Shown here: one piece after another, positions 39,779 through 59,716 of the stretch
Position numbering within the stretch: position 1 is the stretch's first letter
How the letters are laid out: every line of letters begins with the position of its first letter
Virus record (IMG/VR): IMGVR_UViG_3300034072_001021
Coordinates: 124,001-188,000 of that record
Source: a virus
DNA length: 64,000 nucleotides
Strand: one strand, 5' to 3'
The notes under the pieces: generated by a model
The model's input: the letters and a program-made list of their open reading frames with translations, nothing else
Told to the model about the DNA's origin: nothing
Databases searched by the model: none
Made by a program: the position numbers and the translations under genes

Positions 39779-39789
39779 AATACATAGTA
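39779..39789 (+). promoter_or_regulatory. Putative phage promoter element (AATACATAGTA)
   Basis: It lies between a terminator and the two-hairpin leader of the gene at 39845. Similar to the element at 43049 (ACAATACATAATAGCG), including the CAACAATACATA-TA-GCGTTGA context seen at both. Confidence 0.4.
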
Positions 39790-39799
39790 ACGTTGAATA

Positions 39800-39841
39800 G
39801 GAAGAATGATCTTCCAATAACCAAGTGTTCTCAGGAGAACA
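39800..39841 (+). promoter_or_regulatory. Two-hairpin leader with the ribosome site in hairpin 2
   Basis: Hairpin 1 is GGAAGA-ATGA-TCTTCC (39800-39815). Hairpin 2 is TGTTCT-CAGG-AGAACA (39826-39841), which holds the Shine-Dalgarno AGGAGA. The same design appears at 59678-59716 upstream of another small membrane-protein operon. Confidence 0.5.
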
Positions 39842-39844
39842 ACC

Positions 39845-40219
39845 ATGAACAATGTACAAACTCTGAAAGCCAAGTTCCAAGCTGTAATTGCCAAGAACAT
39901 GGTGGGTCTGAAACTGGCTGACGTAACTGTCGACCGCACCAAACGCATGATGGCTCTGGCCGCGCCGTTCGCTAACGATGATCTGATCGTGCCTGAGTGC
40001 ATCGAAATGCTCATTAACCAAGTGACTGATCCGAGCTACCTGTTCAAGGATTCGGTAATCAAAGACGGCGTCGTCTATCCGGAGATCATGGATGAGTCGC
40101 TGTGCGATGAGGTGTTGCAAGGCTTCGTACAACAACTGGAATGGCTGCCGGCTGATGGCAGTGCTACCGTAGTCGCCATCACCCTGTGGTGTGGCGAAGA
40201 GATGCTGAAAAGCGCATAA
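39845..40219 (+). CDS. Hypothetical protein, 124 aa
   Basis: The protein (MNNVQTLKAKFQAVIAKN...) is soluble and helical, without known motifs. A two-hairpin leader precedes it and three tiny membrane-protein genes follow within 330 bases on the same strand. Strong ribosome sites throughout suggest an early, well-expressed operon. Function unknown. Confidence 0.8.
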   Translation: MNNVQTLKAKFQAVIAKNMVGLKLADVTVDRTKRMMALAAPFANDDLIVPECIEMLINQVTDPSYLFKDSVIKDGVVYPEIMDESLCDEVLQGFVQQLEWLPADGSATVVAITLWCGEEMLKSA

Positions 40220-40244
40220 CCCAACGTCCTGAGGAGGACACATC

Positions 40245-40370
40245 ATGAAAGAGTTTTCGTTCTTCGTACTCGGTGCCGTCATCGGCGGTCTCTGGGTGAA
40301 ACGCAGCATGGACAATGCCGCGCTCAAGAAAGAAAACGAGGCCCTCAAGGCTCGTTCTGCAACTGCTTAA
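40245..40370 (+). CDS. Small single-TM protein, 41 aa
   Basis: ATG at 40245 follows GAGGAGGA. The N-terminal membrane segment (FSFFVLGAVIGGLWV) is followed by KRS and a short charged helix (ALKKENEALKARSA). The predicted topology is N-terminus out or short-in with a positive C-terminal flank. Too small for family recognition; the clean start, stop and spacing make it a likely gene. Confidence 0.7.
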   Translation: MKEFSFFVLGAVIGGLWVKRSMDNAALKKENEALKARSATA

Positions 40371-40380
40371 GGAGATCAGC

Positions 40381-40515
40381 ATGACTGGCTTCAATCCCTG
40401 GATCGACGTGGCTATCATCGCAGCTATCTGGGTGCCGATAGCCGGTGCCCTGCTGTTCTGCGAATGGCGTAAATCCAAAACCCAAAAGGCGCTCCGCGGC
40501 GCCACCCGCGTGTAA
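40381..40515 (+). CDS. Small single-TM protein, 44 aa
   Basis: ATG at 40381 follows AAGGAG; the stop of the previous gene overlaps this site. A hydrophobic segment (WIDVAIIAAIWVPIAGALLF) precedes a basic tail (EWRKSKTQKALRGATRV). The layout is like its neighbour: one membrane helix and a positive C-terminus. Function unknown. Confidence 0.7.
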   Translation: MTGFNPWIDVAIIAAIWVPIAGALLFCEWRKSKTQKALRGATRV

Positions 40516-40547
40516 TACACAACTCAACTGCAATAGGAGCAACAAAC

Positions 40548-40796
40548 ATGTCCTTCATCGAAACCATGAAAGAAATCGGCGGTTCCATCGTGGAAGCCAT
40601 CCAGGAAAACCCCGTAGCCGCCGGCGTCGGCGCTGCTGTGGTCGCTGCTGGTGTCGGTGGTACCATCTGGTACCGTCGCCGTAAGGCTGCCAAGAACGTC
40701 GACGTCAAGGGCACCATCGCCCACCTGGAGCAAGTCGCCGCAGCCGGTAACGAAACCGTTGCCAAGGCTGTCGATGCCGCCCAAGCTTCTGCGTAA
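40548..40796 (+). CDS. Small single-TM protein, 82 aa
   Basis: ATG at 40548 follows AGGAG. An amphipathic N-terminus (MSFIETMKEIGGSIVEAIQE) precedes a Gly/Ala/Val membrane segment (AAGVGAAVVAAGVGGTIW), then YRRRK and an Ala-rich helix. The GxxxG-like spacing suggests helix-helix packing. Third of three consecutive one-TM genes, closed by a strong terminator. A holin-like or membrane-modifying role is possible but unsupported. Confidence 0.8.
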   Translation: MSFIETMKEIGGSIVEAIQENPVAAGVGAAVVAAGVGGTIWYRRRKAAKNVDVKGTIAHLEQVAAAGNETVAKAVDAAQASA

Positions 40797-40811
40797 GCAG
40801 GAGCCGGCTAG

Positions 40812-40848
40812 AGAAAGGGGCCTTCGGGCTCCTTTCTTTTTCTTTGTT
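40812..40848 (+). terminator. Intrinsic terminator with UUCG loop
   Basis: An 11-bp stem (AGAAAGGGGCC with its complement, one G-T pair) closes on TTCG and is followed by TTTTCTTTG. Confidence 0.92.
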
Positions 40849-40872
40849 TCCGTTCAATTCAACTAAAATTCA

Positions 40873-40987
40873 GATACACATTATCAACCTGCTTAACACT
40901 AGCATTGGTAAAATAAAACCATGCGAGCTATTGTTGTGCGTTAAACACGTGTTCATAAAACCGCAATACATCCTAGGAGTTACACCA
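40873..40987 (+). promoter_or_regulatory. Promoter-like elements and leader of the 159-aa gene
   Basis: GATACACATTATCAA (40873-40887) and GCAATACATCCTAG (40963-40976) resemble the recurrent ATACAT element. The second is directly followed by the ribosome site, so the first is the likelier promoter, giving a leader of ~100 bases. Nothing else is visible in this 150-base gap. Confidence 0.35.
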
Positions 40988-41467
40988 ATGTCCGAAGCAC
41001 TGGCCAAAGTCAACCAGGCTGCACAAGCCGTTGCTGCCAACATCCAAGCCGCCATCACCTTCGACGACGACGGCGCCGGCGTCCTGCCCGAGACCTTCGT
41101 GGCCGACAACCTGGCCCTGGCCTCCGGCAACGAAGAGCTGACCATCGAGCAAGTCAAGCTGGTTCAGACCACCTCCTCCAACTTCGCCGTCGGCCTGGCC
41201 CTGGGCCTGGGCAACAGCTCCCTCGAGCTGATGTCCAAGAACAAGAACCTGGACCGCACCAACGCCGCCCTCGAGTTCGGCAACGACCTGATCCGTGCCA
41301 GCGTCGATCGCGAAATGACCGTGCGTGTGCCCGGCACCAACGAAGAGAAGAAGAAGTACGGCAACACCAGCGTCAAGCTGGAAAGCGGCGCTGTCGCCAA
41401 GCGCGGCGAACTGAAGCGTGTTCTGACCCACGTGTCGGACAACTTCGCTGCTGCGTTCGCCAAGTAA
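40988..41467 (+). CDS. Hypothetical protein, 159 aa, extreme codon bias
   Basis: The true start is ATG at 40988 (MSEALAKVNQAAQAVAANIQ) behind TAGGAG; the longer frame runs through the leader. Codons are nearly all C/G-ending optimal ones (GCC, AAC, CTG, AAG), far stronger than in neighbouring genes, a mark of very high expression. The protein is Ala/Leu-rich, helical and acidic, with no membrane segment, and ends in FAAAFAK. No family is recognised. Abundance would suit a DNA-mimic, host-shut-off or structural role; none is shown. Confidence 0.85.
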   Translation: MSEALAKVNQAAQAVAANIQAAITFDDDGAGVLPETFVADNLALASGNEELTIEQVKLVQTTSSNFAVGLALGLGNSSLELMSKNKNLDRTNAALEFGNDLIRASVDREMTVRVPGTNEEKKKYGNTSVKLESGAVAKRGELKRVLTHVSDNFAAAFAK

Positions 41468-41486
41468 CTACTTCTCGGCCTGGCCA

Positions 41487-41514
41487 GATAGCCTGGGGGT
41501 GTCCCCAGGCTATC
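41487..41514 (+). terminator. Intrinsic terminator
   Basis: GATAGCCTGGGG pairs with CCCCAGGCTATC and is followed by GTCCTTTATTTTTG. Confidence 0.9.
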
Positions 41515-41529
41515 GTCCTTTATTTTTGT

Positions 41530-41548
41530 TGACGATGTCTTATCGTCA
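41530..41548 (+). promoter_or_regulatory. Leader hairpin abutting the ribosome site
   Basis: TGACGAT pairs with ATCGTCA over GTCTT, directly followed by TTAGGAG, the ribosome site of the gene at 41563. It could modulate translation or protect the 5' end. Confidence 0.4.
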
Positions 41549-41562
41549 TTAGGAGTTTACCG

Positions 41563-42063
41563 ATGGAAGACGTCATCGTGCTGGATACTCGCGAACAAGC
41601 GTTCCGTGACAAGATCGCTGTACTCGCTTCCGAATTCCTGAAGGGTGGTTACTACACGCGCTTGGTGATGACCGATGACATCATCAGCGTAAAAGATGTC
41701 CATGCTCGCGCCAAGGAGAACAAAGACGAGTTCTTCTACGGTATCGCGCTGCCTGCTGAGATGCAGGAGACGGTGGACAACTTCGTCCGTGTGGACAAGA
41801 AGGTTGTACTGGGACTGATCGAGAAAGGCGAAGAACACCTCAAGTTGGTGGGCCTGGAAGCCGAGTTCGACAAGACTCAGAAAGCTTACCTGGTGAAGAT
41901 CTCCAGCTGCGGCATGGGTTTCTACATCAGCAAGCAGGTACACACTCCTCGTCACCAGCGTCAGAAGCGTATCACTTTGAGTAAGCTCAGCGAAAAACTG
42001 AATTCGACCGAGCATACCAGTGGGCGCCGTAAGATCGTCCTCGGTCAAGACGCCGTGGTCTAA
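41563..42063 (+). CDS. Hypothetical protein, 166 aa
   Basis: ATG at 41563 follows TTAGGAG. Charged alpha/beta protein (MEDVIVLDTREQAFRDK...) with a basic C-terminus (TPRHQRQKRITLSKLSEKLN, then SGRRKIVLGQ), possibly nucleic-acid binding. One Cys-containing turn (KISSCGMGFYISK) near 128. No family recognised. It stands between two hairpins. Confidence 0.8.
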   Translation: MEDVIVLDTREQAFRDKIAVLASEFLKGGYYTRLVMTDDIISVKDVHARAKENKDEFFYGIALPAEMQETVDNFVRVDKKVVLGLIEKGEEHLKLVGLEAEFDKTQKAYLVKISSCGMGFYISKQVHTPRHQRQKRITLSKLSEKLNSTEHTSGRRKIVLGQDAVV

Positions 42064-42070
42064 GCGAAAT

Positions 42071-42100
42071 ATAGATCCCAGGGATATCCCTGGGATCTAT
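42071..42100 (+). terminator. Perfect 30-bp palindrome, hairpin
   Basis: ATAGATCCCAGGGAT is followed by its exact complement, giving a 12-13 bp stem. It starts 8 bases after one gene and ends right at the GGGGAG ribosome site of the next. It has no U-tract. Confidence 0.75.
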
Positions 42101-42111
42101 GGGGAGTGGAA

Positions 42112-42603
42112 ATGAAGCCAACAGTAATGCAAGCTGCTTTGATTGCCGGCATCGAAGTGATGCGTGAGCGTATTGAGAAAGCGGTAGCTCGCAACGAGAC
42201 ATGGATTTATACCCTTGAGAGCAATCTGATTGATGGGGTGGCTGTCGAAGACACTATTCGACTGACATTCGATAAATCTAGCTTCACGGGTTATTGGCTT
42301 TGCATAAACGCCCATTACTGTGAAGGCGGTGTCGGTCCTCTGGATTCCTTCACGCTACACATTTCGACCAAGTCATTGTTAGTGGTTCTTAACCACAGCA
42401 ATAACGTCAATGGCGTAGAGTCATTCTTCGATCCGATTGATGACGTGGCCATTGTCTTGGATGCGGTAGCTCACTTCCATGCCATGCCGGATAAACTCGA
42501 AGAAATTGTCCAGAAGGCAGAAGCGGAGAAGGCTAAGGCGATCGAGTATCAGCAGCGCCGTTCTCGTTTCACCGTCATCGACAACCCGTCTGTGGTGAAG
42601 TGA
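42112..42603 (+). CDS. Hypothetical protein, 163 aa
   Basis: The start is ATG at 42112 behind GGGGAG, not the in-frame GTG two codons earlier. The protein (MKPTVMQAALIAGIEVMRER) has a helical N-terminus, a strand-rich middle (SFTGYWLCINAHYCEGGVGP) and a C-terminal Lys/Glu helix (EEIVQKAEAEKAKAIEYQQR). No family is recognised. It is read with the next gene, 1 base away. Confidence 0.78.
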   Translation: MKPTVMQAALIAGIEVMRERIEKAVARNETWIYTLESNLIDGVAVEDTIRLTFDKSSFTGYWLCINAHYCEGGVGPLDSFTLHISTKSLLVVLNHSNNVNGVESFFDPIDDVAIVLDAVAHFHAMPDKLEEIVQKAEAEKAKAIEYQQRRSRFTVIDNPSVVK

Positions 42604-42604
42604 A

Positions 42605-43000
42605 ATGACACAGTTAATCAGTTTGCTGGAGTATATCAACGAACATGACGTTGTACTTGACTCCTGCTATAACTACATGGCTCTAGAAGCCGCTATAAGG
42701 GCCATAGAGGACGATCCGGAGTTTCCCCCGTATCATCCAACCAAGTTGACTGACATACGTCAATATGGCCATCTGGAGAGCGTTAATCGACTCCGGGAAT
42801 TGATCAGGAAAGCTGAGTTCAGTTTAGACCTGATTAACGTACCTGCTTTGGTTCAAGGCGGGTACGTGTTTAAGACCCTTTACGGTCGAGAAGCCAAACG
42901 AGGTTTCATGGATAATCGCCAGGTCATCCAGACAAGTAAGGGACGGCTCGTGTTAGACGAGTATGTGACGATTACGTATCATCCTGATCCGGGGCCTTAG
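42605..43000 (+). CDS. Hypothetical protein, 131 aa
   Basis: The ATG is one base after the upstream stop, with GTGAAGTGAA before it, so translation is coupled. Small helical protein (MTQLISLLEYINEHDVVLDS) with a Pro-rich turn (DDPEFPPYHPTKLTD). Its stop codon lies in the loop of the terminator hairpin at 42987-43010. Function unknown. Confidence 0.75.
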   Translation: MTQLISLLEYINEHDVVLDSCYNYMALEAAIRAIEDDPEFPPYHPTKLTDIRQYGHLESVNRLRELIRKAEFSLDLINVPALVQGGYVFKTLYGREAKRGFMDNRQVIQTSKGRLVLDEYVTITYHPDPGP

Positions 43001-43020
43001 GGCTCCGGATTTTATTTCTT
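42987..43020 (+). terminator. Intrinsic terminator overlapping a stop codon
   Basis: ATCCGGGGCC pairs with GGCTCCGGAT (one G-T pair) over a TTAG loop containing the TAG stop of the preceding gene; TTTATTTCTT follows. Confidence 0.9.
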
Positions 43021-43047
43021 TTTTTGTTTCGATTGGACTTAAAGACA

Positions 43048-43063
43048 ACAATACATAATAGCG
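43048..43063 (+). promoter_or_regulatory. Putative phage promoter element (ATACATAATA)
   Basis: ACAATACATAATAGCG is 32 bases upstream of the ATG at 43095 and directly after a terminator. It is closest to the element at 39779. Confidence 0.4.
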
Positions 43064-43094
43064 TTGACTTAACCAAATAGCTGAGGCGCTAATT

Positions 43095-44492
43095 ATGTCG
43101 TTTATGCTGGATATGGAATTTAGCAGAATCAATCGCAACAACTCTGCCTGGGTCGTCATCATGATGCTAAATGATCAGCAGGGTGTCATTAAAGACTTCG
43201 ACGGAGAGAAGACTGAAATAGTCCTTAACGTGGGCGACGAAGTTCTGGTTAATTCGACTCCTGTTAAGGGTAGTCGAGGTGTATATGTGAAAATCAATAC
43301 GGAAGGTTATCTTCCAAAAGGGATCTATCACATCTACATCAGGGGCGGGACGTTGATAACTGACGGTATTCCGGTGAGGATGATGTCACCACTCCGCGCA
43401 AAATTCGTCTGTACACAATCAATCAATACCAAGGAAACCACTACCATGATCGATTCCTGCTTCAAACTCATCGAAGGCGAACTCAAAACCACCAACCAGG
43501 CGTATGCTGTCATCAAGCGCCTGGGTGAAACTCGCCGTGTCCAAAGTCACGTCAGTGGGACGATGGACATCCTCCGCATCATCCCCGGCACCAAGTTCCA
43601 CGTCGTGGTGCGTGGTGACAGTAAGGCCATGCTGGTGTTCATGGAAGGTCGCTTCGGCGGCAACTCCACGTTTCGTCAACTGACCCTCGATGGCGAGAAG
43701 AATGTCATGACCACCGGTGACATCCTCCAGTCGCTCGATCTGGTCAAGAAACACGTGGCTGTACTGGAATGGGTCTGCAAAGATCCGGCTGAAGAGGAGA
43801 ACAAGGAACAGGTTAACAAACAACCCGTTCTCAAGGCACCGCAGACGATGACAGATCATGGATACCAATCCATGAGCCAGATGATCTATACCGACAAACT
43901 CACCCTCGGCAACGTGATGTACCGCATCGGCTTTGCCAACAATGGCATGGAGGTGCGTATCGGTAACGTCGACGATGGTCGTTGGTTGATGGCAGTGGTC
44001 AACTACCTGGGTCGTCTCTCCAACCTGAAGGATGCATCTGTCATCGTCGTCGCACGTATCCTCTACGAGGACAATACGGTCGGTGCAATGATGATGGGTA
44101 TTCCCGGCCACAGCGCTCTCGTCAATCACTTCTACGTGATGTCCAACGTAGATGGTGAGTTGCGTTCCTGCGGCACTCCTGACAAGTACTATCCTACTGG
44201 CATGGAGATGCACGTCATCATCGAGGGGACTGTGGAACAGAAGCCTATGGAAGCCAAGAAGAAAGAGCCTCAGGAATGGATTCCCCACAACGGTCAATTC
44301 GTCGTCGTCAAAGACGATCCGAAGAAAACCATGTACATCCTGGGCGACTACGATCAGGCCGAACGCAAGTTCATCCTGACTCTGGCTGACTCGGCTCGTC
44401 GTGAACGTCTGGAATCGCTCCAGATCCGTGGTGAGCCGCCGGTCATCCTGGTCGAGCCGTCCAAGGTACGTCCGTTCGTCCTGACCTACTGA
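43095..44492 (+). CDS. Hypothetical multidomain protein, 465 aa
   Basis: The frame opens at ATG 43095 behind GAGG. Three strand-rich parts are visible: 1-115 (VIKDFDGEKTEIVLNVGDEV...), 118-250 (FKLIEGELKTTNQAYAVIKR...), and 260-465 (TLGNVMYRIGFANNGMEVRI...). A linker EEENKEQVNKQPVL separates the second and third. Codon use changes near 43446, where an internal ATG (MIDSCFKLIE) has AAGGA upstream, so a shorter 348-residue form may also be made. I recognise no family. Confidence 0.75.
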   Translation: MSFMLDMEFSRINRNNSAWVVIMMLNDQQGVIKDFDGEKTEIVLNVGDEVLVNSTPVKGSRGVYVKINTEGYLPKGIYHIYIRGGTLITDGIPVRMMSPLRAKFVCTQSINTKETTTMIDSCFKLIEGELKTTNQAYAVIKRLGETRRVQSHVSGTMDILRIIPGTKFHVVVRGDSKAMLVFMEGRFGGNSTFRQLTLDGEKNVMTTGDILQSLDLVKKHVAVLEWVCKDPAEEENKEQVNKQPVLKAPQTMTDHGYQSMSQMIYTDKLTLGNVMYRIGFANNGMEVRIGNVDDGRWLMAVVNYLGRLSNLKDASVIVVARILYEDNTVGAMMMGIPGHSALVNHFYVMSNVDGELRSCGTPDKYYPTGMEMHVIIEGTVEQKPMEAKKKEPQEWIPHNGQFVVVKDDPKKTMYILGDYDQAERKFILTLADSARRERLESLQIRGEPPVILVEPSKVRPFVLTY

Positions 44493-44507
44493 TCCATCGA
44501 GACGGCA

Positions 44508-44542
44508 TATACGGGGGCAACTGCCCCCGTATACCGTTCTTT
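44508..44542. terminator. Bidirectional intrinsic terminator
   Basis: TATACGGGGGCA pairs with TGCCCCCGTATA, then CCG and TTCTTTTTTT. The flanking CGG and CCG can extend the stem. It lies between converging genes. Confidence 0.9.
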
Positions 44543-44558
44543 TTTTCTTCGTCCAGCT

Positions 44559-45425
44559 TTACAGCTTGATGAAGGTACGGTTGAACTCCGTAACTTGCTC
44601 GGTGAAACCAACGTTGTGCTTGGACACGTTCGCCTCGACGCCGGTCATGAAGGCAGGCTTCAGGTTCGGCGAGGTACCGGTCTTCGGCATGGCATCCAGC
44701 AGCTGCTGAGCGAAGCGATCGACCGCGATACCAACCTGTTGCAGCCCGGTGAACGGGATGGTCAGTACCAGCTCTTCGCCATCGGCGGTCTTGTCGCGAC
44801 GACCGGTGAAATCACCGGCAGTAGTCGGATACATGTTGGTGATCAGCCAAGCGGCATTGACCTTACTGAAGCTCGGGTCGGGCTCGAAGGCGATGATGCT
44901 CATCGAGTACACGTCCGGCAGCAGGTCGGTCGGGCGGTTCATCCGAGTGGCGATGCCCGGAACTTTCGAATCCGGGTCCATGATCAGTTCGGTGATCCAG
45001 GATTCGAAGAACCGCTGGACCGGACGACCGTACTTCTCACGGATGGTCATCGAGGGGTCGGAACGCTGACGCGTCACGTTACTCGGGGTGTGCTGGATCT
45101 CACCGGCACCGGACACCGGAGCTTCCACGCTGTTGACAGTCAGGGTACGGTTGAAGCCGTCCCAGGTCTGAGCGTGCATTTCCACAATGCCCTTCAGGGC
45201 CTTGTAGTAAGCGTCCGGGTTGTCCAGGAATTGGAAGCCGGTGGGGGCCTGCAGAACCTTGATGATCAGATTACGACGAACGTAATCCGTGTTGGCATGG
45301 AAGTAACGCAGGTCGGATTGGTAGGCGTTCTGCCCACCTACCGCCAGGTTGACCATGGGCGAGTTGACGAATTCGCCATATCCCAGGCCGTTGCCCAGGA
45401 GGGTGTCACGATGACGAATAGTCAT
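44559..45425 (-). CDS. Tail tube protein
   Basis: The 288-residue protein follows the sheath gene directly (TAATG overlap), the usual sheath-tube order in contractile tails. It is strand-rich, starts MTIRHRDTLLGNGLGYGEFV, and has the long middle loops and helix (NAWLITNMYPTTAGDFTGR-like segment near 200) seen in jumbo-phage tubes. Codon bias is strong, as expected for a protein with many copies per virion. From memory phiKZ gp30 has a similar length and position after the sheath gp29. Assignment rests mainly on context. Confidence 0.78.
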   Translation of the reverse strand: MTIRHRDTLLGNGLGYGEFVNSPMVNLAVGGQNAYQSDLRYFHANTDYVRRNLIIKVLQAPTGFQFLDNPDAYYKALKGIVEMHAQTWDGFNRTLTVNSVEAPVSGAGEIQHTPSNVTRQRSDPSMTIREKYGRPVQRFFESWITELIMDPDSKVPGIATRMNRPTDLLPDVYSMSIIAFEPDPSFSKVNAAWLITNMYPTTAGDFTGRRDKTADGEELVLTIPFTGLQQVGIAVDRFAQQLLDAMPKTGTSPNLKPAFMTGVEANVSKHNVGFTEQVTEFNRTFIKL

Positions 45426-47479
45426 TATTCAGCCTCCGTACCGGTCCGGCGGCCTGCAACAACGGTCAGAACCTCTACCGTCTTCATGCCGTCGAACAGA
45501 CCTTCGATGTCCGTGTGCCAGCTATAACCACGCTGAGTGTCAGCCGGGGTGTAGTAGGAACGCGGGGTGATGTCGGCACGACCGTCGTACTTGTCCTTGA
45601 TCTGACCTTCGATGAAGCGATCGACGTTCACGGCGTACTCATTCGCAGTCATGCGGCTGTCGCCAGTGAACATACGCCATGCCAACTCACCGATACGGTT
45701 GAGGTGACAGCAGATAGCCATCGGGAAGAACGAGTTGAGGACCGACGTGTTGTCGTGGTAGACAGTCTGGATGCCAGGGAAGAACACTTGACCGCGATGG
45801 TCGAAGGGCTCGGCCGAGGAGATGCCAGCTTGCCAGTCGGTGTTACGCGGCTTGACATGACGGAACTTCGCGTTGTGATCGACGAAGCGAGTCACGACAC
45901 GATAGAACGAGTTGTCAGGCGCGAAGCCAGTGCGCATGCGCTCGCCACCCATGTAGGTAGCGACCTTGACGGCGAAGTCGATGGTGAACGGCAGGATACC
46001 GTTGTATTCGCTGTCAAGGTAAGTACCGGCGTGTTTCATCACGACAGCACGGCAGGCACCGGTGTTGTAGAACTCGGATTCCGGGATCAGGGACAGAGCG
46101 TTACGCAGAGTAGCGCCGATGCTGGAATCTTCTTCCGGCTTGTTCAGCGGCTCGAGTACGTCCTGAGTAGAAGCCAGAATCCAGACGTCCGGACGGACGG
46201 CCATGATGTTACCCATCAGGCGCTTGGTTTCCAGAGTGAAGCCGGTGTCGATGAACGCCGACATCGGATAGCTGGCGCGATCAGCGTAAGGGATTTCGCC
46301 CTCACCGAACACGTTCAGCTCTTCTGCAACCATCTGGTCGTAGGCAACCGGAGTCACGGTACCATCGGCACCGCCCAGCAGCCAGTGAGTGGAGTTCTCA
46401 CCGAACAGTACGCCGCCAGCAGCCGGGCCTTCCAGCTTGACGCTGTAGTACGGCACGCCGTTGATGTTGGTGGCACCGAAGATGTTGATGGTGTGTTCCG
46501 GAGTCACTTCACCATCGATCAGACCGTAGTCTTGCTCGGTGGAGTACAGCAACTCAGCCACTGCCTTGACTTCCGCGTCGTAGACATGGAAGGACTTGAG
46601 CGGACCGTAGCCCGAGAACACTTCAGGATCGTTGTTCTCGAAAGCCTTCAGGATGCGCTTGTCGTAGGAGTAGTTGATGTTGGTCTTCGGATCGACCACA
46701 CCGGTCTTCAGGGTGAACTCAACGAAGGGTTCACCATTCAGGTTCATCAGAACCTGGCCAGTGGAATTCTTGTTGGCACGCTCAACGAGGGCCAGGCGGT
46801 ACGGGTACGCGCCTTGTTCTTCGCTCAGCTCAGCGTCGGCCGGGGTCGACGACAGAGTAGTCGGAGATACCAGACGCAGACCGATGTTGGAACCCTTGGC
46901 GCCGAAGAAGCGAGCTTCCACGTCGATCAGCGGGTACATGGTCGAGGTCTGGCCGTCGGCGTTGACCAGGGTGCCAGTAGTGCGGGAAGCTTGACGCAGG
47001 TTGTCTTCGCCCGGCTCGTCCACATGGAAACGAACACGGAAGCCATCCAGCTTCTCGCCAGTCGGAACCAGCTCACCATTGGTGCGCTTGAAGGTACCGT
47101 CGACGTTACGCTCGTACTGGTCGATCTTGTCGGCAACGATGTCAGCCCAGATACGCAGGGTAGCTGTTTTGGCATCGGCCGGTTTCATACGGCGCACCAG
47201 CGCCATAGCGCCGGTCTGCAGGACTTTCTGCAGCATGGCGGCTTGGTGGCTCAGGAACGGAGAACCCGGATAGAAGTTGTCGGCACCATAAATGGTGGAG
47301 AAGCCTTCACCGCTAACCAGGTTAGCAGCATCCGACGGGCCCCAGGAAGTGAGCAGTGGGCAGAACGGCAGGAAGATCGGAAGGTTAACGATCTCCAGCG
47401 GCTGACCTCGGCCACTCACATCCTTGAAACCGAGGACTTCTGTCCGCGGCAAAGAGGAAGCCATTGATACAGACGACAT
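45425..47479 (-). CDS. Contractile tail sheath protein
   Basis: The start is ATG at 47477-47479 (MSSVSMASSLPRTEVLGFKD) behind GGGAGA, five codons inside the longest frame (684 aa). The N-terminal part (VNLPIFLPFCPLLTSWGPSD, then ALVRRMKPADAKTATLRIWA) and the C-terminal domain (NREGELAWRM...-like NRIGELAWRMFTGDSRMTAN followed by a helix and DKYDGRADITPRSYYTP) follow the sheath pattern of phiKZ-type phages. Strong codon bias fits a major structural protein. Contraction drives the tube and spike through the envelope. Confidence 0.85.
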   Translation of the reverse strand: MSSVSMASSLPRTEVLGFKDVSGRGQPLEIVNLPIFLPFCPLLTSWGPSDAANLVSGEGFSTIYGADNFYPGSPFLSHQAAMLQKVLQTGAMALVRRMKPADAKTATLRIWADIVADKIDQYERNVDGTFKRTNGELVPTGEKLDGFRVRFHVDEPGEDNLRQASRTTGTLVNADGQTSTMYPLIDVEARFFGAKGSNIGLRLVSPTTLSSTPADAELSEEQGAYPYRLALVERANKNSTGQVLMNLNGEPFVEFTLKTGVVDPKTNINYSYDKRILKAFENNDPEVFSGYGPLKSFHVYDAEVKAVAELLYSTEQDYGLIDGEVTPEHTINIFGATNINGVPYYSVKLEGPAAGGVLFGENSTHWLLGGADGTVTPVAYDQMVAEELNVFGEGEIPYADRASYPMSAFIDTGFTLETKRLMGNIMAVRPDVWILASTQDVLEPLNKPEEDSSIGATLRNALSLIPESEFYNTGACRAVVMKHAGTYLDSEYNGILPFTIDFAVKVATYMGGERMRTGFAPDNSFYRVVTRFVDHNAKFRHVKPRNTDWQAGISSAEPFDHRGQVFFPGIQTVYHDNTSVLNSFFPMAICCHLNRIGELAWRMFTGDSRMTANEYAVNVDRFIEGQIKDKYDGRADITPRSYYTPADTQRGYSWHTDIEGLFDGMKTVEVLTVVAGRRTGTEAE

Positions 47480-52883: not shown

Positions 52884-52887
52884 TATA

Positions 52888-52934: not shown

Positions 52935-55151
52935 ATGCAGACTATTCTTTTTGAGCGCGATTGGGATTATTACCCGACTGCGATCTGGGATACCAAGACT
53001 ACCAACAAGTCTTTCCTTGAATTCTCAGCGCTTCTTAAGCACATGGGGGTCAAGAACCATTTGTTCCCTCTGGCTCTTATGCAGCCGGAGCTTCAGGGGG
53101 TTGATCCGTACGATCCCTCCTTGTCAGACGACATAAAACTGAAGATCAAAATCGAGTGTACGTTTAACCCATGGTACTTCATCCGTGAGGTTATGCGTGT
53201 ACCTCCAGCGGCAGGTGATACACCTGTTAAGCTGGAAGCTAACCGGGGCAACATTTCTCTATGGTGGTCGTTCCTTAACCACATCGACTATTTCCTCGTC
53301 CAGATTCGTCAGACTGGTAAGTCGCTGAACTCTGACGGTATCTCGGTTTGGTATCAAATCTTCGGCGCACGTAACTCCCGTGCTAACCTGTTCACCAAAG
53401 GTGACTTGTTTAAAGAACACATTGCACGTCTGAAGAAACTACGTGCTCTGTTGCCGAAGTACTTAGTCAACATCGTCAAGAAAGATACCGACAACCAGAA
53501 AGAATTCACCAACATGTCTCAGGGCAACCGCATGGTGGTGTACATCCCGCAAAAGGATGAAGAAGCAGCAAACAACCTGGGTCGTGGTCTGACCACCCCC
53601 TACAACCACGTGGACGAAATTGCGTTCCTTAAGAACGTACACATCTCCCTCGGTGTTATGCTGGCGGGCGGTGGTGCTGCTCGTGAAGAAGCGGCACGTA
53701 ACGGCCTGCCGTACGGCAACATCTTCACTACTACTGCTGGCGAACTGGATACTCCGGAAGGCGCTTACGCGTACGACCTGATGACCGGTGGTGCAGAGTG
53801 GAACGATGCGTTCTATGACTGTGCCAATACCGACGAGCTGTATGAGGTGGTGCGGAAGCAATGCCGTAACAAAGATGCAATCCTCATCAACGGTACGTTC
53901 AACCATCGTCAATTAGGTAAGACTGATGCATGGTTGAGGAAGAAGATCGCGGAATCTCGTCAGACCGGTGACGGTGTACGTCGAGACTACATGAACGAGT
54001 GGACGACGGGTAATGCCCGAAACCCGCTCAGCAAAGATACGCTGCGTAAGATCCATGCCAGTGTAACTAAGCCTTCTTACCTTGAGATCGACAAACAAGA
54101 CCACTACTCCATCCGCTGGTACATCACGCGAGAAGAAGTAGAGACAGGAATCTCTCGTCGTCAAATGGTCATGGGCATCGATACCTCCAACGCCGTAGGG
54201 CGAGACAACATCACAGGTGTCATTGTCGACATCAGTACACTTGAGGTGGTGGGTGCATGGACTGTCAACGACTCTAACCTGACCGCATTTGCAATGTGGT
54301 TGGCAAAGATCATTGTCAGATTCCAGAACATCACCATTGTACCTGAATCGAAATCGACGTGGATTGGCATCCTCGATACCTTGCTGCTCACGTTGCCGAA
54401 CTATAAGGTCGATCCGGCTAAACGTATCTATTCGACACTGGTGGATGCTAAGGACGAATCACCTGAGGCTAAACGGCGCTATAACGAGTATGTGGGCGAT
54501 CGCGACAACTACCGCTCCTACCGTAAGTTCTTCGGCTTCCCAACGAACAGCCAGCTCCGTGAGATCATTTACGGGCCTGTTCTGCAAGAGGCTGCGAAGA
54601 AGTCTGGTGCTGTGGTGCGTGACGCTAAGCTGCAAAGCGAACTGGGTCGTCTGGTTGAGCGTAACGGACGTATTGACCACGATGCATCCGGGCACGATGA
54701 CCACGTCATCAGCTGGCTGCTTTGCCATTGGTTCCTTACCTACGGTAAGAACCTCGATCACTACGGAATCACTGTCAGTGAAATCAAACGTCGTGTCTAT
54801 GAAGCAGAGCACAAGCTCTCGTGGAGTGAACAACGTCGTTATGATGACCAACAGAGTATCCGTGATGAGATTGGTCGCCTGAGTGAAACGCTTGGTAACG
54901 AGCGTAACACTTACGAACGAATCAAGCTACAACAACGACTGGATCTGCTCATCAGCAAGGTTGATGATGAGTTTGATATGGAGGGTATCACTTCCATTGA
55001 CCAGATCAAAGAGAATAGCCGCGAGAAGAAGATGATTGAAACTCGCTCGTTCGGTCCAGGTAAACCGTTGGAAATCGAGAAGCCCCTGAACACCAGTTTC
55101 AACAGACGTCGTGAGATGTTCAAGAATCAAAATGTGATGGTGGTGGTATGA
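52935..55151 (+). CDS. Terminase large subunit (TerL)
   Basis: The 738-residue protein has the two TerL domains. The ATPase has Walker A IRQTGKSLN (about 123-131; Gln-Thr precede the GKS) and Walker B/Glu in NHVDEIAFLKN (~221). The nuclease has the RNase H-like strand MGIDTSNAVGRDN (~414) with the first metal Asp, VPESKSTW (~472) with Glu, and HDASGHDDHVISW (~583) with the last Asp. It cuts concatemers and pumps DNA into the prohead. A coiled-coil C-terminal tail (~660-738) is extra. phiKZ TerL is gp25 as I recall. The small subunit is not obvious nearby. Confidence 0.92.
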   Translation: MQTILFERDWDYYPTAIWDTKTTNKSFLEFSALLKHMGVKNHLFPLALMQPELQGVDPYDPSLSDDIKLKIKIECTFNPWYFIREVMRVPPAAGDTPVKLEANRGNISLWWSFLNHIDYFLVQIRQTGKSLNSDGISVWYQIFGARNSRANLFTKGDLFKEHIARLKKLRALLPKYLVNIVKKDTDNQKEFTNMSQGNRMVVYIPQKDEEAANNLGRGLTTPYNHVDEIAFLKNVHISLGVMLAGGGAAREEAARNGLPYGNIFTTTAGELDTPEGAYAYDLMTGGAEWNDAFYDCANTDELYEVVRKQCRNKDAILINGTFNHRQLGKTDAWLRKKIAESRQTGDGVRRDYMNEWTTGNARNPLSKDTLRKIHASVTKPSYLEIDKQDHYSIRWYITREEVETGISRRQMVMGIDTSNAVGRDNITGVIVDISTLEVVGAWTVNDSNLTAFAMWLAKIIVRFQNITIVPESKSTWIGILDTLLLTLPNYKVDPAKRIYSTLVDAKDESPEAKRRYNEYVGDRDNYRSYRKFFGFPTNSQLREIIYGPVLQEAAKKSGAVVRDAKLQSELGRLVERNGRIDHDASGHDDHVISWLLCHWFLTYGKNLDHYGITVSEIKRRVYEAEHKLSWSEQRRYDDQQSIRDEIGRLSETLGNERNTYERIKLQQRLDLLISKVDDEFDMEGITSIDQIKENSREKKMIETRSFGPGKPLEIEKPLNTSFNRRREMFKNQNVMVVV

Positions 55152-55187
55152 CGGCATAGAGGGAGGCTCAGGCCTCCCTCTATGCCG
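55152..55187. terminator. Bidirectional hairpin terminator, conserved base
   Basis: CGGCATAGAGGGAGG pairs with CCTCCCTCTATGCCG (15 bp, extendable) between convergent genes. It is the clearest copy of the CGGCATA/TATGCCG-based design. No U-tract. Confidence 0.85.
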
Positions 55188-55189
55188 GA

Positions 55190-56059
55190 TCACTTAAAGT
55201 TCGAGTAGACGACCATCCGAAGATAGTCGGCCAGATCCCTCGAACGGTAGAACAGTGCCGCATGCAGAGCAGTGTTGTATGGATGCATCATTTCACGATC
55301 CAAGTACTTGATCAGCGGGTGCGGGTCATCCACACCACCTGCCAGTTCACGGAATGAAAGCAATTTACCCATTCGTTCTTCGAGATCATCGAAGATCTTT
55401 TCCAACTGATCTGCAAACTCATCGAACTTGTCTGCCCAGCGACAGAAGATGATTGCCTTTTCGGCAGTCATTGATCCAATAGGGATCGGCATGTTCGTAT
55501 CAGGGCGCACTGGTACCTTGAGGACTACCAACATCTCATCACGGAAGGGCTTAGCTTCCACGATGACACGGGAGGACTTCATACCAAGTAAACGGACGGT
55601 TGACTTAGCGAGATGTTCTGCCACTGTTTGAGGACGGCTGGACAATGCATCATTCATGCTTATTTTGGCAAGCATGGAAGTGACACGACCAGCCCATTCG
55701 AGATATCGCATACTACGATCGTAGGCGATACTCGATAAGACAGTGTACATATTGAATTCACGGTTGAGGAACTCATCAGTCATCGAATCGATCGATGATC
55801 CACAAACAACCAGCCATGCAGGATGGACAGTTGGTGAACCATTCGATGGGCCTTTGAAAACCTGTTCGTTAAGACTGACATCGGTGAACTTATCCATGTT
55901 CGCCGGATCATTCCAAGGTGCACGAGGCAGTTTCCTAACGGTGTATTCGTCGGGGAGTTTGAATTCCCCGAATATCTCACTTAACCTACCTTCCATAGAC
56001 ACGGTCTGGACTCCTTCTGCGGAGTGCTGTGCTCTCAAATACTCGAGCAACTTTTCCAT
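55190..56059 (-). CDS. Probable internal virion protein with S-x-E site, 289 aa
   Basis: The ATG at 56057-56059 (MEKLLEYLRA) follows AGGAAG and overlaps the previous stop. SME at 21-23 (QTVSMEGRLS) would release a ~23-residue N-terminal peptide if the prohead protease acts on it. The rest is mixed alpha/beta with a basic C-terminal part (YNTALHAALFYRSRDLADYL). No enzyme family is recognised. It is coupled to the 419-residue gene upstream and converges on TerL. Confidence 0.75.
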   Translation of the reverse strand: MEKLLEYLRAQHSAEGVQTVSMEGRLSEIFGEFKLPDEYTVRKLPRAPWNDPANMDKFTDVSLNEQVFKGPSNGSPTVHPAWLVVCGSSIDSMTDEFLNREFNMYTVLSSIAYDRSMRYLEWAGRVTSMLAKISMNDALSSRPQTVAEHLAKSTVRLLGMKSSRVIVEAKPFRDEMLVVLKVPVRPDTNMPIPIGSMTAEKAIIFCRWADKFDEFADQLEKIFDDLEERMGKLLSFRELAGGVDDPHPLIKYLDREMMHPYNTALHAALFYRSRDLADYLRMVVYSNFK

Positions 56060-57318
56060 CACGACTTCCTGTAATGCTTCATGGTGACCGTCCGAATGAC
56101 AAGATACAGGATAGCCCCCGTCCTGATCGAAGCCACCAAAGCGTCGTTCTTCGTCTTCACTGACTTGCGCACTACTTTCTCGCCCACGTCACGCATCTGC
56201 AGAAGCAGATCGTTATTGGCACGAGAGGCAGTATAGAGGTTGCGCAGTTTGGTCAGCACCGTAGCAATATCATTCACATTGATCGACGAACGGTTAGACG
56301 CAATGAAATCGAACAGATGCTCGAGAGTGAGGTCTGCCAGTTTCACGACGTTCGGATCGCCTTTCAGCTTAGACGAATGACGAGCCATGTATTCGAGACA
56401 TTCCATCATGTTGTGGTATGGAAGCTTGGGCATGCAACCAGCTACGATCTCCGCGAGTTCACGGACGATGAAGCTGTTGCGGTCGGCCATTACTTCCTCA
56501 AGGTAACGGCGATAAGTCGAATACATGTTCTTACGGTTTTTCACCACGATCTCACCGTCAATGTTGACCGATGTGTTCGAGGTGGTACGGATGACAGCAG
56601 TCGGATCTCTCCGGACGATTTCGAATTCGTCACGAATGTTACGCAGGTATCCCTTGATTCGACTTTGGATGTCGTTCACCATGTAGATGATGTCGTAATC
56701 GTCGTCGAATTGTTGGAACGTCTTGTTGAGGAAGTGGGGAGAACGTTTGTCGATGGTCTGCTCAGCGCGATACTGAAGCAGAGCACCCCACGAGCCCAAT
56801 TCCTTGAGCTTGTACTTCTTGGGCAAACGAGCATAGGTAGCTACAGCCACTGCTTCGTCTGCACGGTTCGGGAACCAGTACGTCAGGATCGAGGTGATGA
56901 ACTTGTATTGTAGTACCAGCAGTGCGTCGATCATGCCCGAGTGTTTCTCGGTCTCGGTCAGCTTGGAGCGAGAAATAGCGTGCACGACCCACAGACACGA
57001 CAGGTTCATGACGTCAGTGGAGACGTAACGTGGTTTCTTGGGATCGGGTACCAGTGTCTTGAGCTTCAGCAGGTCGTCTTGCAGAGCTGCATCGTCGATG
57101 TCAAGGATGCTGGTGAACCATTCGATTCGGTCGGCTTTGGTGAAGCGGACATCCTGCACACCCATCAGGTGACCGCCGAAGAAAGCAACGTGATCGTCGT
57201 TCTTGTTGGCGAAGTTCTGGCGATAGGTTTGCAGGCGACGGAGGAAATTCTTGTCGATAGCGATGTCTTTGCACGCTTCGTCAAACAAGGACTTCACAGT
57301 AGGTGTAGTGCCTGACAT
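56059..57318 (-). CDS. Hypothetical helical protein, 419 aa, probable virion protein
   Basis: ATG at 57316-57318 (MSGTTPTVKSLFDEACKDIA). Almost wholly helical with charged heptads (RSRIKGYLRNIRDEFEIVR-like) and basic C-terminus (TRTVTMKHYRKS region, VIRTVTMKHYRKS). No signature motif. It forms a two-gene minus-strand unit with the S-x-E protein and lies beside TerL, so a structural or packaging-related role is likely. Function unknown. Confidence 0.78.
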   Translation of the reverse strand: MSGTTPTVKSLFDEACKDIAIDKNFLRRLQTYRQNFANKNDDHVAFFGGHLMGVQDVRFTKADRIEWFTSILDIDDAALQDDLLKLKTLVPDPKKPRYVSTDVMNLSCLWVVHAISRSKLTETEKHSGMIDALLVLQYKFITSILTYWFPNRADEAVAVATYARLPKKYKLKELGSWGALLQYRAEQTIDKRSPHFLNKTFQQFDDDYDIIYMVNDIQSRIKGYLRNIRDEFEIVRRDPTAVIRTTSNTSVNIDGEIVVKNRKNMYSTYRRYLEEVMADRNSFIVRELAEIVAGCMPKLPYHNMMECLEYMARHSSKLKGDPNVVKLADLTLEHLFDFIASNRSSINVNDIATVLTKLRNLYTASRANNDLLLQMRDVGEKVVRKSVKTKNDALVASIRTGAILYLVIRTVTMKHYRKS

Positions 57319-57384
57319 GGGTCTTATCCTGTTGAGAAACAGTTACCGGGATTCATAGCGATAGGTCGATTCAAAAATAATTCA

Positions 57385-57400
57385 ACCATACATTGTAAAG
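57385..57400 (+). promoter_or_regulatory. Putative phage promoter element (ATACATTGTAA)
   Basis: ACCATACATTGTAAAG is ~63 bases upstream of the ATG at 57463, in a divergent 144-bp region. Confidence 0.4.
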
Positions 57401-57462
57401 GGGAAGAAAGCGAATACAAACGCGATCATCAAGACATAACCAGCACCAATGGAGTGACAGCA

Positions 57463-58044
57463 ATGCAACAGCAATCCGTACTTCCAGCTATTGTTACCCG
57501 TCATCTCGCTGACAGCGAAGCTGACTTCATCGACCTGTCCAATCTGGAACTGGTCATGGATCAAGAAGAACAAAGCAACAAGGGGATCACCGTGAAGCAA
57601 GAAAGGACGCTGTCTGGCGCAAACATCACCGATCATGGCAAGGGTACTCTGAGTAGTCGTATCTGCCAGATCGCCCACGACTGTCTGCATGTTGATCTTC
57701 AGACCGAGTTCCGTGAAATGGCTATGAGTCATCCGGCGTTCGTGAAGATCTGCGACGAGATCCGTCAGGAGATCGAAGAAGGTCGGATGATCCAGATCAT
57801 GGATCGTCTCGAAGCTATCGGCTGCGAGGTCTTCTATGACCGCAAAGAAAAGAAACTGACCCTGGGGCTGAACAAGAAGAACCTGTTCAAGCATTTCAAC
57901 GAACACTCGCGGGTCATCGACCTGCGTAACCGTCAAGGCATCAGCATCGTTAATGGGATTAACCCCATGTACGACAAAGAGCCGAAACATCAAGTACCTG
58001 AATTGGTGACCAAGTCTTACTACTTGATCATCGATCTGAAATAA
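57463..58044 (+). CDS. Hypothetical protein, 193 aa
   Basis: The start is ATG at 57463 (MQQQSVLPAIVTRHLADSEA) behind GGAGTG. Acidic N-terminal half, then a helical middle (KICDEIRQEIEEGRMIQIMD) and a basic strand-turn segment (YDRKEKKLTLGLNKKNLFKH). Family unknown. It is followed by an elaborate terminator. Confidence 0.78.
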   Translation: MQQQSVLPAIVTRHLADSEADFIDLSNLELVMDQEEQSNKGITVKQERTLSGANITDHGKGTLSSRICQIAHDCLHVDLQTEFREMAMSHPAFVKICDEIRQEIEEGRMIQIMDRLEAIGCEVFYDRKEKKLTLGLNKKNLFKHFNEHSRVIDLRNRQGISIVNGINPMYDKEPKHQVPELVTKSYYLIIDLK

Positions 58045-58053
58045 CCCCCTTTC

Positions 58054-58127
58054 AAGATCTCTGCTGAGCCTGAGCCGGTTAGCAGCACCCCCTTGCTTTC
58101 GCAACCGGTGCCCAGAGATCTTTTTTT
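58054..58127 (+). terminator. Complex intrinsic terminator with nested stems
   Basis: The outer stem AAGATCTCTG/CAGAGATCTT encloses an inner stem CCGGTT/AACCGG (58075-58108), and TTTTTTT follows. It lies after the 193-residue gene. Confidence 0.85.
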
Positions 58128-58145
58128 GTTTAAGGAGCTAGGAGC

Positions 58146-58550
58146 ATGCTAGAGGAGATTGTGAAGGACTTCAAAAGCATCGTTACCGACTATCAGTCCT
58201 ATCCTTCAGAAGACGTCATTCCTAAAGATGTCCATGAACGACATTCCAAACTAGCAGCCAAGTGTGTCCTTGAGACTATGCGGTTGTTAGTGGGGTATGA
58301 CGAGACTGTGATGAATCTTCCAATGTCTGCGTTCCTGAAGTACCTTGAACACATTCGCATGGATGTCTTCGAGGAATTGGCTAAGGAAGGTATCGCATTC
58401 CACTACTACTACCACAATGGCCTGCTCTACGGCAGACTGGTGGATCAGACTCAAGTCATGGTCATGTACCCTGTGACCACTACACAGCAGACTCCTCTGG
58501 TCCGTCAGTTCATTGATGGGTTTGAGATTAAGGAATCAACGATCCATTAA
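58146..58550 (+). CDS. Hypothetical protein, 134 aa
   Basis: ATG at 58146 follows AAGGAGCTAGGAG. A helical soluble protein (MLEEIVKDFKSIVTDYQSYP), with an aromatic stretch (AFHYYYHNGLLYGRLVDQTQ) near 80. Nothing is recognised. It is closed by its own terminator. Confidence 0.75.
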   Translation: MLEEIVKDFKSIVTDYQSYPSEDVIPKDVHERHSKLAAKCVLETMRLLVGYDETVMNLPMSAFLKYLEHIRMDVFEELAKEGIAFHYYYHNGLLYGRLVDQTQVMVMYPVTTTQQTPLVRQFIDGFEIKESTIH

Positions 58551-58558
58551 ACCGATAC

Positions 58559-58598
58559 GATCACTGCTCTTAACGGGGCAGTGATCTATTCTTTTTTG
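58559..58598 (+). terminator. Intrinsic terminator
   Basis: GATCACTGC pairs with GCAGTGATC over a 10-base loop and is followed by TATTCTTTTTTG. Confidence 0.9.
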
Positions 58599-58599
58599 T

Positions 58600-58794
58600 T
58601 TAATGGGGAGTTCTGTATAGTATGATCAGTCTTGCTACTTTTCTTGGGAAGGAAGGGAAAGGGGGTAAGATTGATGACGAACGGAGTGAGGAATCAATCT
58701 GGGGGATAGGGTAGGTAGGGTATATCTGCGTGGTTGGTGGATAGCCGTAGCGTAGCGTAGGGTAGACAACAGACACCATGCCTTATTCTCTTCT
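58600..58794 (+). ncRNA. G-rich non-coding stretch, possible structured RNA
   Basis: No reading frame with a ribosome site is visible. It contains AGATTGAT (58668-58675) pairing with ATCAATCT (58693-58700) over a 17-base loop, flanked by GGGGG runs. A run of G-tracts (GGGGGATAGGGTAGGTAGGG, 58701-58720) and tandem CGTAG units (58748-58764) follow. It lies between two terminators, so a short independent transcript is possible. No promoter motif of the ATACAT type is present, although GTATAGTATGATCAG occurs at 58614. Confidence 0.3.
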
Positions 58795-58813
58795 GAGGGG
58801 GCATAGCCCCCTC
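58795..58813 (+). terminator. Hairpin terminator
   Basis: GAGGGGGC pairs with GCCCCCTC over ATA, followed by TATATATAG. It closes the G-rich non-coding stretch. Confidence 0.7.
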
Positions 58814-58887
58814 TATATATAGACCGGCCTGACGTACCAAACTATATCAGGTTTTCCGTAAAAGAAAAAAAGTTTAAGAGTGCCGCC

Positions 58888-59304
58888 ATGAATCCTTTTG
58901 CATCGTTGGAAAGTATCCTCTCCCCTCAAGGTGAACCGGAAGCTCCGTCTATCGGTCTGCTGGTAGAGGACTGGGATGAGAACCTGAGACATGATGTCCA
59001 ACAGATCGTGGACACTGGGTATCAGGTGGTGGTGATTCCTACTGGCTCAACTTCGATGGAAGTCAAGAGTGCAGATGAAGAACAAATGGGTACGGGTGAT
59101 CCTGTCTCCATGATAGAACTGGATCATCACGAGCCTCGTGTCCTGTTCTACTACAAAGGTAAGCCCGAGAATGCTGCTGAAGGCATCCCTGTGCTGATCG
59201 TGGAAGAAGGCAAGGTGAAAGTGGACATGGAGGGTCGGGTCAAGGAGTTGGCTGAGCATTTAGGACTGCTTGATGAGGAATTCGACTATGTGGATCGTTG
59301 TTGA
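58888..59304 (+). CDS. Hypothetical acidic protein, 138 aa
   Basis: ATG at 58888, with AAGAGTGCCGCC upstream (moderate ribosome site). Strongly acidic protein (MNPFASLESILSPQGEPEAP, LLVEDWDENLRHDVQQIVDT), mixed alpha/beta, without membrane segment. It overlaps the following membrane-protein gene by 17 bases. No family is recognised. Confidence 0.75.
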   Translation: MNPFASLESILSPQGEPEAPSIGLLVEDWDENLRHDVQQIVDTGYQVVVIPTGSTSMEVKSADEEQMGTGDPVSMIELDHHEPRVLFYYKGKPENAAEGIPVLIVEEGKVKVDMEGRVKELAEHLGLLDEEFDYVDRC

Positions 59305-59605
59305 AGCAATACTGATCACAATTGTCGTAGCGCTGTCTCTCTGGCCCTACATCACCCACTTCATCCGTGAGAAGAAATTCCACGGAGCTTGTTACGAGAT
59401 GGGTGTGGCGTACATTGAAGTGTTCTACCAGACGATCAGACATCGTTTCGTAGATGCGATAGGTACGCTGGCATTGTTGTTCTTGCTGTGTGCCGTATTC
59501 AGTAACTTTGCCATCGCTATGGCCATCTATTTCATCCACATCATGATCGTGGGTAAGATAGCTATCCATTACGGACATGAGCCTGGTAGTGTCGAGTGGA
59601 AATAG
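59288..59605 (+). CDS. Small multi-TM protein, 105 aa
   Basis: The preferred start is ATG at 59288 (MWIVVEAILITIVVALSLWP) behind GAGGAA; ATG at 59273 is an alternative. There are probably three membrane segments: 2-20, about 57-75 (AIGTLALLFLLCAVFSNF) and 76-92 (AIAMAIYFIHIMIVGKI), with a cytoplasmic-type basic loop (REKKFHGACYEMG) between the first and second. It resembles the next protein in layout. Function unknown. Confidence 0.72.
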   Translation: MWIVVEAILITIVVALSLWPYITHFIREKKFHGACYEMGVAYIEVFYQTIRHRFVDAIGTLALLFLLCAVFSNFAIAMAIYFIHIMIVGKIAIHYGHEPGSVEWK

Positions 59606-59629
59606 TAGGGAGGGCATTTGCCCTCCCTA
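59606..59629 (+). terminator. Hairpin terminator
   Basis: TAGGGAGGGCA pairs with TGCCCTCCCTA, followed by TGCCGAG. It includes the last base of the stop region of the upstream gene. Confidence 0.75.
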
Positions 59630-59655
59630 TGCCGAGTGGATTGAACCAATACTGA

Positions 59656-59670
59656 AAGATACATTACAGA
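59656..59670 (+). promoter_or_regulatory. Putative phage promoter element (ATACATTACA)
   Basis: AAGATACATTACAGA is ~50 bases upstream of the ATG at 59720, directly after a hairpin terminator. Confidence 0.4.
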
Positions 59671-59677
59671 GGGGATA

Positions 59678-59716
59678 TGGAGAATGACTCTCCATCACCT
59701 ATGGTCTCAGGAGACT
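59678..59716 (+). promoter_or_regulatory. Two-hairpin leader, second copy
   Basis: Hairpin 1 is TGGAGA-ATGAC-TCTCCA (59678-59694). Hairpin 2 is GGTCT-CAGG-AGACT (59704-59716), holding the AGGAGA ribosome site. It shares AGAATGA and TCTCAGGAGA with the leader at 39800, while the paired bases differ in a compensated way. Confidence 0.5.

Follow-up and report, generated by a model that had tools for sequence, protein, structure and literature searches.

Two covarying hairpins in the leaders of predicted early genes of a phiKZ-like jumbo-phage lineage

Descriptions of gene control in nucleus-forming jumbo phages have centred on their two RNA polymerases. Here we report on a leader with two hairpins, HP1 and HP2, upstream of the genes starting at positions 39845 and 59720 of a 64-kb window, i.e. 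bases 124001-188000 of the 259,140-bp virus record IMGVR_UViG_3300034072_001021 (positions are those of the window and all its features lie on the + strand, unless stated otherwise). Described systems share parts of this leader. Early promoters of phiKZ, AR9 and phiR1-37 combine an extended AT-rich motif in front of early operons with a G start 6 nt downstream (PMC5312081, PMC7598289). Stabilising stem-loops of the E. coli ompA/papA type stand at or within a few nucleotides of the 5' end, and decay protection by 5' stem-loops is established in this organism (PMC3997798). Phage T4 carries structured or marked initiation regions on its mRNAs, namely the RegB sites and the RegA and gp43 operators, with GGAG in the Shine-Dalgarno (SD) sequence, and the RsmA/CsrA binding sites are short hairpins over the SD with GGA in their loop. 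T4 also has the PeSLs, described in citing texts as cassettes of a stem-loop and an early promoter repeated before variable small genes. In the literature searched, which comprised open-licence papers, we found no case of a virion RNA polymerase (vRNAP) promoter combined, over dozens of early genes, with an SD-presenting hairpin and a 5' hairpin that covaries.

The nearest named relative of the source genome in the phage collection is the phiKZ-like Pseudomonas phage pPa_SNUABM_DT01 (DT01, 265 kb), which encodes virion and non-virion RNA polymerases, PhuZ and phiKZ-type internal head proteins and was assigned by its authors to a novel genus with Noxifer as nearest relative (PMC8541153). Judged by its sequence, the source genome is a phiKZ-like jumbo phage akin to DT01. 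A BLAST search with the leader against phages returned DT01 only, the rest being noise, an exact 24-mer scan of IMG/VR with HP1 of the source genome gave no match, and no Rfam family matches the leader at gathering score.

Both leaders are present as a sequence-only reading of the window had given them, the HP1 stem of the second site being longer (7 bp). At site 1, the element ATACAT (39780-39785) is followed by HP1 (GGAAGA-AUGA-UCUUCC, 39800..39815; fold of -7.3 kcal/mol, with covariation), which leaves 5 unpaired nt to the inferred 5' end, by an unpaired UAACC linker (39818..39822), a form of the linker motif counted below, and by HP2 (UGUUCU-CAGG-AGAACA, 39826..39841; -3.8 kcal/mol), in which the GG of the SD AGGAG is in the loop and its AG in the stem. 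Site 2 consists of ATACAT (59659-59664), HP1 (AUGGAGA-AUGAC-UCUCCAU, 59677..59695; -7.7 kcal/mol, z -3.35) 3 nt from the inferred 5' end, an unpaired ACC linker (59697..59699) and HP2 (GGUCU-CAGG-AGACU with one G-U pair, 59703..59716; -2.9 kcal/mol; part of alignment A3), the SD AGGAG extending across loop and 3' arm. Taken alone, the two sites are weak evidence. Allowing one mismatch at most, the motif TCTCAGGAGA is no commoner in the window than chance predicts (5 found, 5.9 expected), and the whole leader of site 2 folds no better than its own shuffles (z -0.05). The tetraloop covariance model gives HP1 of site 2 a marginal hit at best (E 5); HP1 of site 1 is matched at 39797-39818 (31.6 bits, E 1.9e-5), its sequence being also in the training set. 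Significance comes from a wider leader family with covariation. The further copies and the relatives keeping the pairing, on which the sequence-only reading had made its claim depend, were found in large number in the source genome, in DT01 and in jumbo-phage contigs of IMG/VR. As these leaders are kin within and between genomes, the counts given below are not counts of independent events; gene starts were assigned from SD and reading frame, and strong and weak promoters were divided at an arbitrary position weight matrix (PWM) score of 31-32.

ATACAT forms the core of a 29-bp motif, gATTcgAatttttTtcAaCgATACATtAT, obtained from a PWM seeded on the promoter part of the leaders, and is by its sequence the core of a putative early promoter of the vRNAP type. 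PWM scans find about 25 copies per complete genome on a single strand within each genome and zero matches in reversed control genomes; an independent exact pattern yields 104 matches in 16 records, confined to one strand per record, and its reverse yields none. Noxifer has 21 early promoters, again all on one strand. The layout is the same as that of phiKZ early sites, TATATTAC...TGA, the core being ATACATnrT instead of TATATTAC. The motif reads ATACATNRT-NNNNKT-G, the G 6 nt past the motif being conserved in the sequences with the start itself inferred, and a G in this position is the mapped start of early transcription in phiKZ, phiR1-37 and AR9 (PMC5312081), which leads us to infer starts at G39795 for site 1 (motif GATTCGAAATATTTTCAACAATACATAGT, 39760..39788, PWM score 37.5) and at G59674 for site 2 (weak match ending in AAAGATACATTAC, 59639..59667, score 18.9-22.2, among the weakest PWM matches). 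As the inferred starts lie downstream of ATACAT, this element would be DNA upstream of the RNA and not part of the transcript. The promoter class supports the genes being early (PMC5312081, PMC7598289), as had been proposed.

The alignments A2 and A3 were picked with the pairing in mind, and we therefore rely primarily on free-register shuffling and on swapping arms between leaders; as a whole-leader MAFFT alignment (A4) misplaced HP2, helices were tallied on separate short alignments. HP2 is present in 57 of 84 leaders, compared to 6.3 in shuffles (maximum 13) and 11 with arms swapped (maximum 22). In free register, 48.5% of the leaders behind strong promoters exceed the HP2 threshold, while only 4.1% do so with the upstream arm shuffled and 8% with arms exchanged between leaders; leaders at weak early promoters (4.7% vs 3.1%) and other genes (7.3% vs 4.4%) are close to their controls. 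The covariation score of the tetraloop subset is 0.475 vs 0.141, reached by 0 of 500 shuffles and by none of the slid controls (at most 0.152). Most telling for the pairing are orthologues whose stems differ in sequence yet still pair. Six small orthologous proteins, most with a predicted transmembrane (TM) segment, form one such family, and all six leaders are paired with the stems AGTCT/AGACT, AGTTCT/AGAACT, AAGCT/AGCTT, TGTATT/AATGCG, TAAGCT/AGCTTA and GTCCT/AGGAC. Pairing is also kept in the seven orthologous leaders of the family of the window gene at 39845, with a clear HP2 in most, and HP2 is weak in most members of another gene family of seven. The stem letters thus vary between genes and phages with the pairing kept, which speaks for the phage selecting the RNA shape, and the selection on RNA structure proposed from two sites is strongly supported by the compensatory changes, the shuffle and arm-swap controls and the orthologues. 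The many diverged copies with compensatory changes reject chance or recent duplication as an explanation. In held-out genomes, HP2 is present in 10 of 18 leaders (1.6 shuffled), most of which resemble leaders already used, making this test largely not independent; of the clearly new leaders 1 of 4 passes (0.3 expected). Noxifer leaders do not contain an SD-presenting HP2. Their early SD is often CCTTTTAAGG or similar, possibly within a different SD hairpin having the GG paired, which is not significant among 18 leaders.

HP2 is marginally stable with a median of about -3 kcal/mol, and its computed effect on the SD is specific. Opening the GG of the SD costs 1.08 kcal/mol with HP2 and 2.80 kcal/mol once its 5' arm is shuffled (64 of 69 leaders, p 2.5e-12), i.e. 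HP2 lowers this cost by about 1.7 kcal/mol; opening the entire GGAG costs the same in both cases (3.73 vs 3.72), and the start codon is unaffected. Neither the leaders of weak early promoters nor those of Noxifer, phiKZ and 201phi2-1 show an effect on GG opening, and a small one exists for other genes (2.39 vs 2.75). The cheaper GG and the unchanged GGAG suggest that HP2 presents the SD core and does not lock the SD. Static SD sequestration is rejected by the GGAG opening cost equalling that of shuffled controls.

HP1 is found in 29 of 46 long leaders behind strong promoters, compared to 8 in shuffles (maximum 15), with an arm-swap score of 15.4 vs 9.6 (maximum 11.3) and a covariation score of 0.261 that 0 of 500 shuffles reached. 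Its loop stands at the same distance from the promoter in most leaders having it, and the inner stem and loop are conserved as GA-AURA-UC with five invariant columns. Given the inferred start, a 5'-proximal hairpin is in most cases preceded by 0-5 unpaired nucleotides, and the folding z of the 5'-proximal region is -1.89 for strong promoters, -0.52 for weak ones, -1.46 for Noxifer and about 0 for phiKZ and 201phi2-1, the early leaders of the latter two differing from ours by containing neither HP1 nor HP2. The HP1 covariance model detects leaders of the source genome and DT01, leaders in four other contigs and one Noxifer leader (E 0.005; E 0.002); Noxifer early promoters are followed by hairpins at the place of HP1 with different stems, some of them pairing the inferred 5' nucleotide. 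HP1 is present on a subset of leaders, and HP1 and HP2 occur independently. Two other roles of HP1 were rejected: an upstream open reading frame (ORF) starting at the AUG of its loop, as this AUG is not conserved (loops ATAA, ACGA, ACAA), and HP1 as a stand-in for Dip, the RNase E inhibitor of phiKZ. No tblastn match to Dip was obtained in any of these genomes, and 201phi2-1 has neither a convincing Dip match nor HP1, so that the correlation is not clean. At site 2, the HP1 loop contains an ATG (59684) in frame with the ORF at 59720, which it lengthens to 122 amino acids (59684-60052); this ATG is probably not used as start, since the SD precedes 59720.

The explanation we favour, tentatively and somewhat short of an even chance, is that early mRNAs of one phiKZ-like jumbo-phage lineage carry a modular 5' leader, with HP1 shielding their 5' end from decay and HP2 presenting the SD. 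According to this model, HP1 would act as 5'-terminal stem-loop hindering the access of RppH and RNase E and would thereby prolong the life of early mRNAs made by the virion polymerase. HP2 would fold locally, keeping the SD core from pairing elsewhere, and would open once the 30S subunit takes the rest of the GGAG, both hairpins jointly enabling strong and reliable early expression of fast-evolving takeover genes behind the strongest early promoters. These functional steps are inferred. Compared to ompA/papA-type stem-loops, HP1 is common to many phage genes and conserved in inner stem and loop, and its stabilising role is putative. The translational control that had been suggested for the whole leader is still possible, but ATACAT falls outside the RNA, HP1 at the inferred 5' end fits decay protection better, and HP2 exposes the SD core instead of sequestering it.

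Several observations weigh against the model of 5' shielding and SD presentation. The whole GGAG is no cheaper to open with HP2, so that a gain in translation is not certain, and many HP2 leaders are without HP1, which is consequently not obligatory. Site 1 and some other HP1 leaders leave 5 unpaired 5' nucleotides, which may be enough for RppH, and the start is placed by homology with mapped relatives. The conserved GA-AURA-UC is more than a pure stabiliser needs. An unpaired [AU]ACC between HP1 and HP2, present in 76 of 84 leaders compared to 30 expected by shuffling, plays no part in the model.

A rather unlikely alternative is a lineage-specific RNA switch, in which a dedicated phage or host factor, a repressor or a nuclease, reads both hairpins and the ACC linker between them. 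In a translational operator, which we likewise consider rather unlikely, an RNA-binding protein recognises HP1 and/or HP2 and represses the early mRNAs later in infection as T4 RegA does, candidates being an RsmA/CsrA-like protein and phage repressors resembling T4 RegA/gp43 or a coat protein. The five invariant columns of HP1 and the unpaired (A/U)ACC in 76 of 84 leaders fit such an operator, and GGA-containing loops over the SD look like Rsm/Csr sites. The Rsm core ANGGA is however not conserved (35 of 82 leaders), leading us to reject RsmA/CsrA sites proper; no CsrA-family gene was found in seven of these genomes, though the host has its own. The HP2 loop shows no consensus past the SD itself and HP1 and HP2 occur independently, both arguing against such an operator. 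From the T4 RegB, RegA and gp43 sites the leader differs in this loop and in having no defined protein, and no RegB-family gene was found in seven genomes.

An element acting at the level of DNA or transcription, with RNA folding incidental, is improbable. The palindromes would be protein sites, signals for vRNAP pausing or escape, or homology arms for gene shuffling, which would agree with the fixed position of HP1 relative to the promoter and with four near-identical promoter-HP1 leaders before unrelated genes (54890, 105213, 163760 and 252561 of the source genome), suggesting copied cassettes. The unit of terminator-like hairpin and promoter also resembles the T4 PeSLs; compared with these, our leaders add transcribed hairpins in the 5' untranslated region (UTR) downstream of the promoter, and a multisubunit phage polymerase takes the place of the host polymerase used by T4. 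HP2, however, is anchored on the SD and not on the promoter, and its stems vary freely with only the pairing kept, including G-U pairs, unlike DNA sites or homology arms; a role in cassette shuffling could coexist with an RNA function.

Quite improbable is a nuclease target, in which HP2 offers GGAG to a RegB-like endoribonuclease cutting GG^AG and shutting off early mRNAs; like the operator, it predicts stage-specific shut-off. The confinement of the element to early mRNAs would suit this. T4 RegB prefers sites whose GGA is unpaired and whose fourth G is constrained (PMC3014915), and in tetraloop-form HP2 the GG is in the loop and the AG in the stem, the A closing the loop with a U. Some leaders carry GGAU or GAGG in place of GGAG, and no RegB (PF10715) or ParE/RelE-family (PF05016) gene was found in seven genomes, although such enzymes diverge fast. 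A riboswitch-like exclusion, in which the pyrimidine-rich 3' arm of HP1 (UCUUCC/UCUCC, resembling an anti-SD) pairs the SD in place of HP1, is highly improbable, as the computed cost of opening the SD stays the same when the HP1 arms are exchanged (3.15 vs 3.10 kcal/mol without HP2; 1.20 vs 1.43 kcal/mol with HP2) and HP2 is also found without HP1.

A specificity of the leader for membrane proteins is not supported. The first gene behind leader 1 (39845..40219, 124 amino acids) has no predicted TM segment, the gene behind leader 2 (59720..60052, 110 amino acids) has three, neither has a Pfam or PHROG match, and TM segments are predicted for 27 of 70 strong-promoter and 26 of 109 weak-promoter genes. 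Immediately before the site 1 promoter lies a perfect terminator-like hairpin (ATACAGGGGAGCC..GGCTCCCCTGTAT, 39718..39749) followed by GCC, and another one (GGGAGGGC-ATTT-GCCCTCCC, 59608..59634), followed by TATGCCG, lies at site 2. Such a hairpin with TATGCC precedes 33 of 70 strong promoters compared to 9% of random 75-mers. TATGCCG without a U run follows terminator-like hairpins, usually past the C-rich arm, and occurs 43 times in the source genome on both strands; the TATGCCG hairpin is possibly the terminator of a phage RNA polymerase. Two further leaders were observed. A long conserved one at 40856-40991 (GTAAATAAAAAC ... GATGTGCG ... AACACGTGTTGA), present in nearly all compared genomes, precedes a gene of 154-159 amino acids with a weak phrog_9746 match. 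A chimallin (ChmA)-like gene (631-643 amino acids; at 197285 of the source genome, outside the window, and 136817 of DT01), with 23-25% identity to phiKZ gp54 by tblastn, has a conserved palindrome, TTCACTAGGCCTAGTAAC, after its early promoter in the complete genomes compared.

As a summary, dozens of early genes share a structured 5' UTR, which suggests that these phages have a further, post-transcriptional layer of control. If the RNA switch were true, it would at a defined stage turn off a whole set of early mRNAs or mark them for ribosomes, and the literature searched describes no such post-transcriptional control for nucleus-forming phages. The leaders offer a natural series of SD-in-loop hairpins for studying the effect on initiation, and the leader serves as a marker for the strongest early genes, which are mostly uncharacterised takeover candidates.

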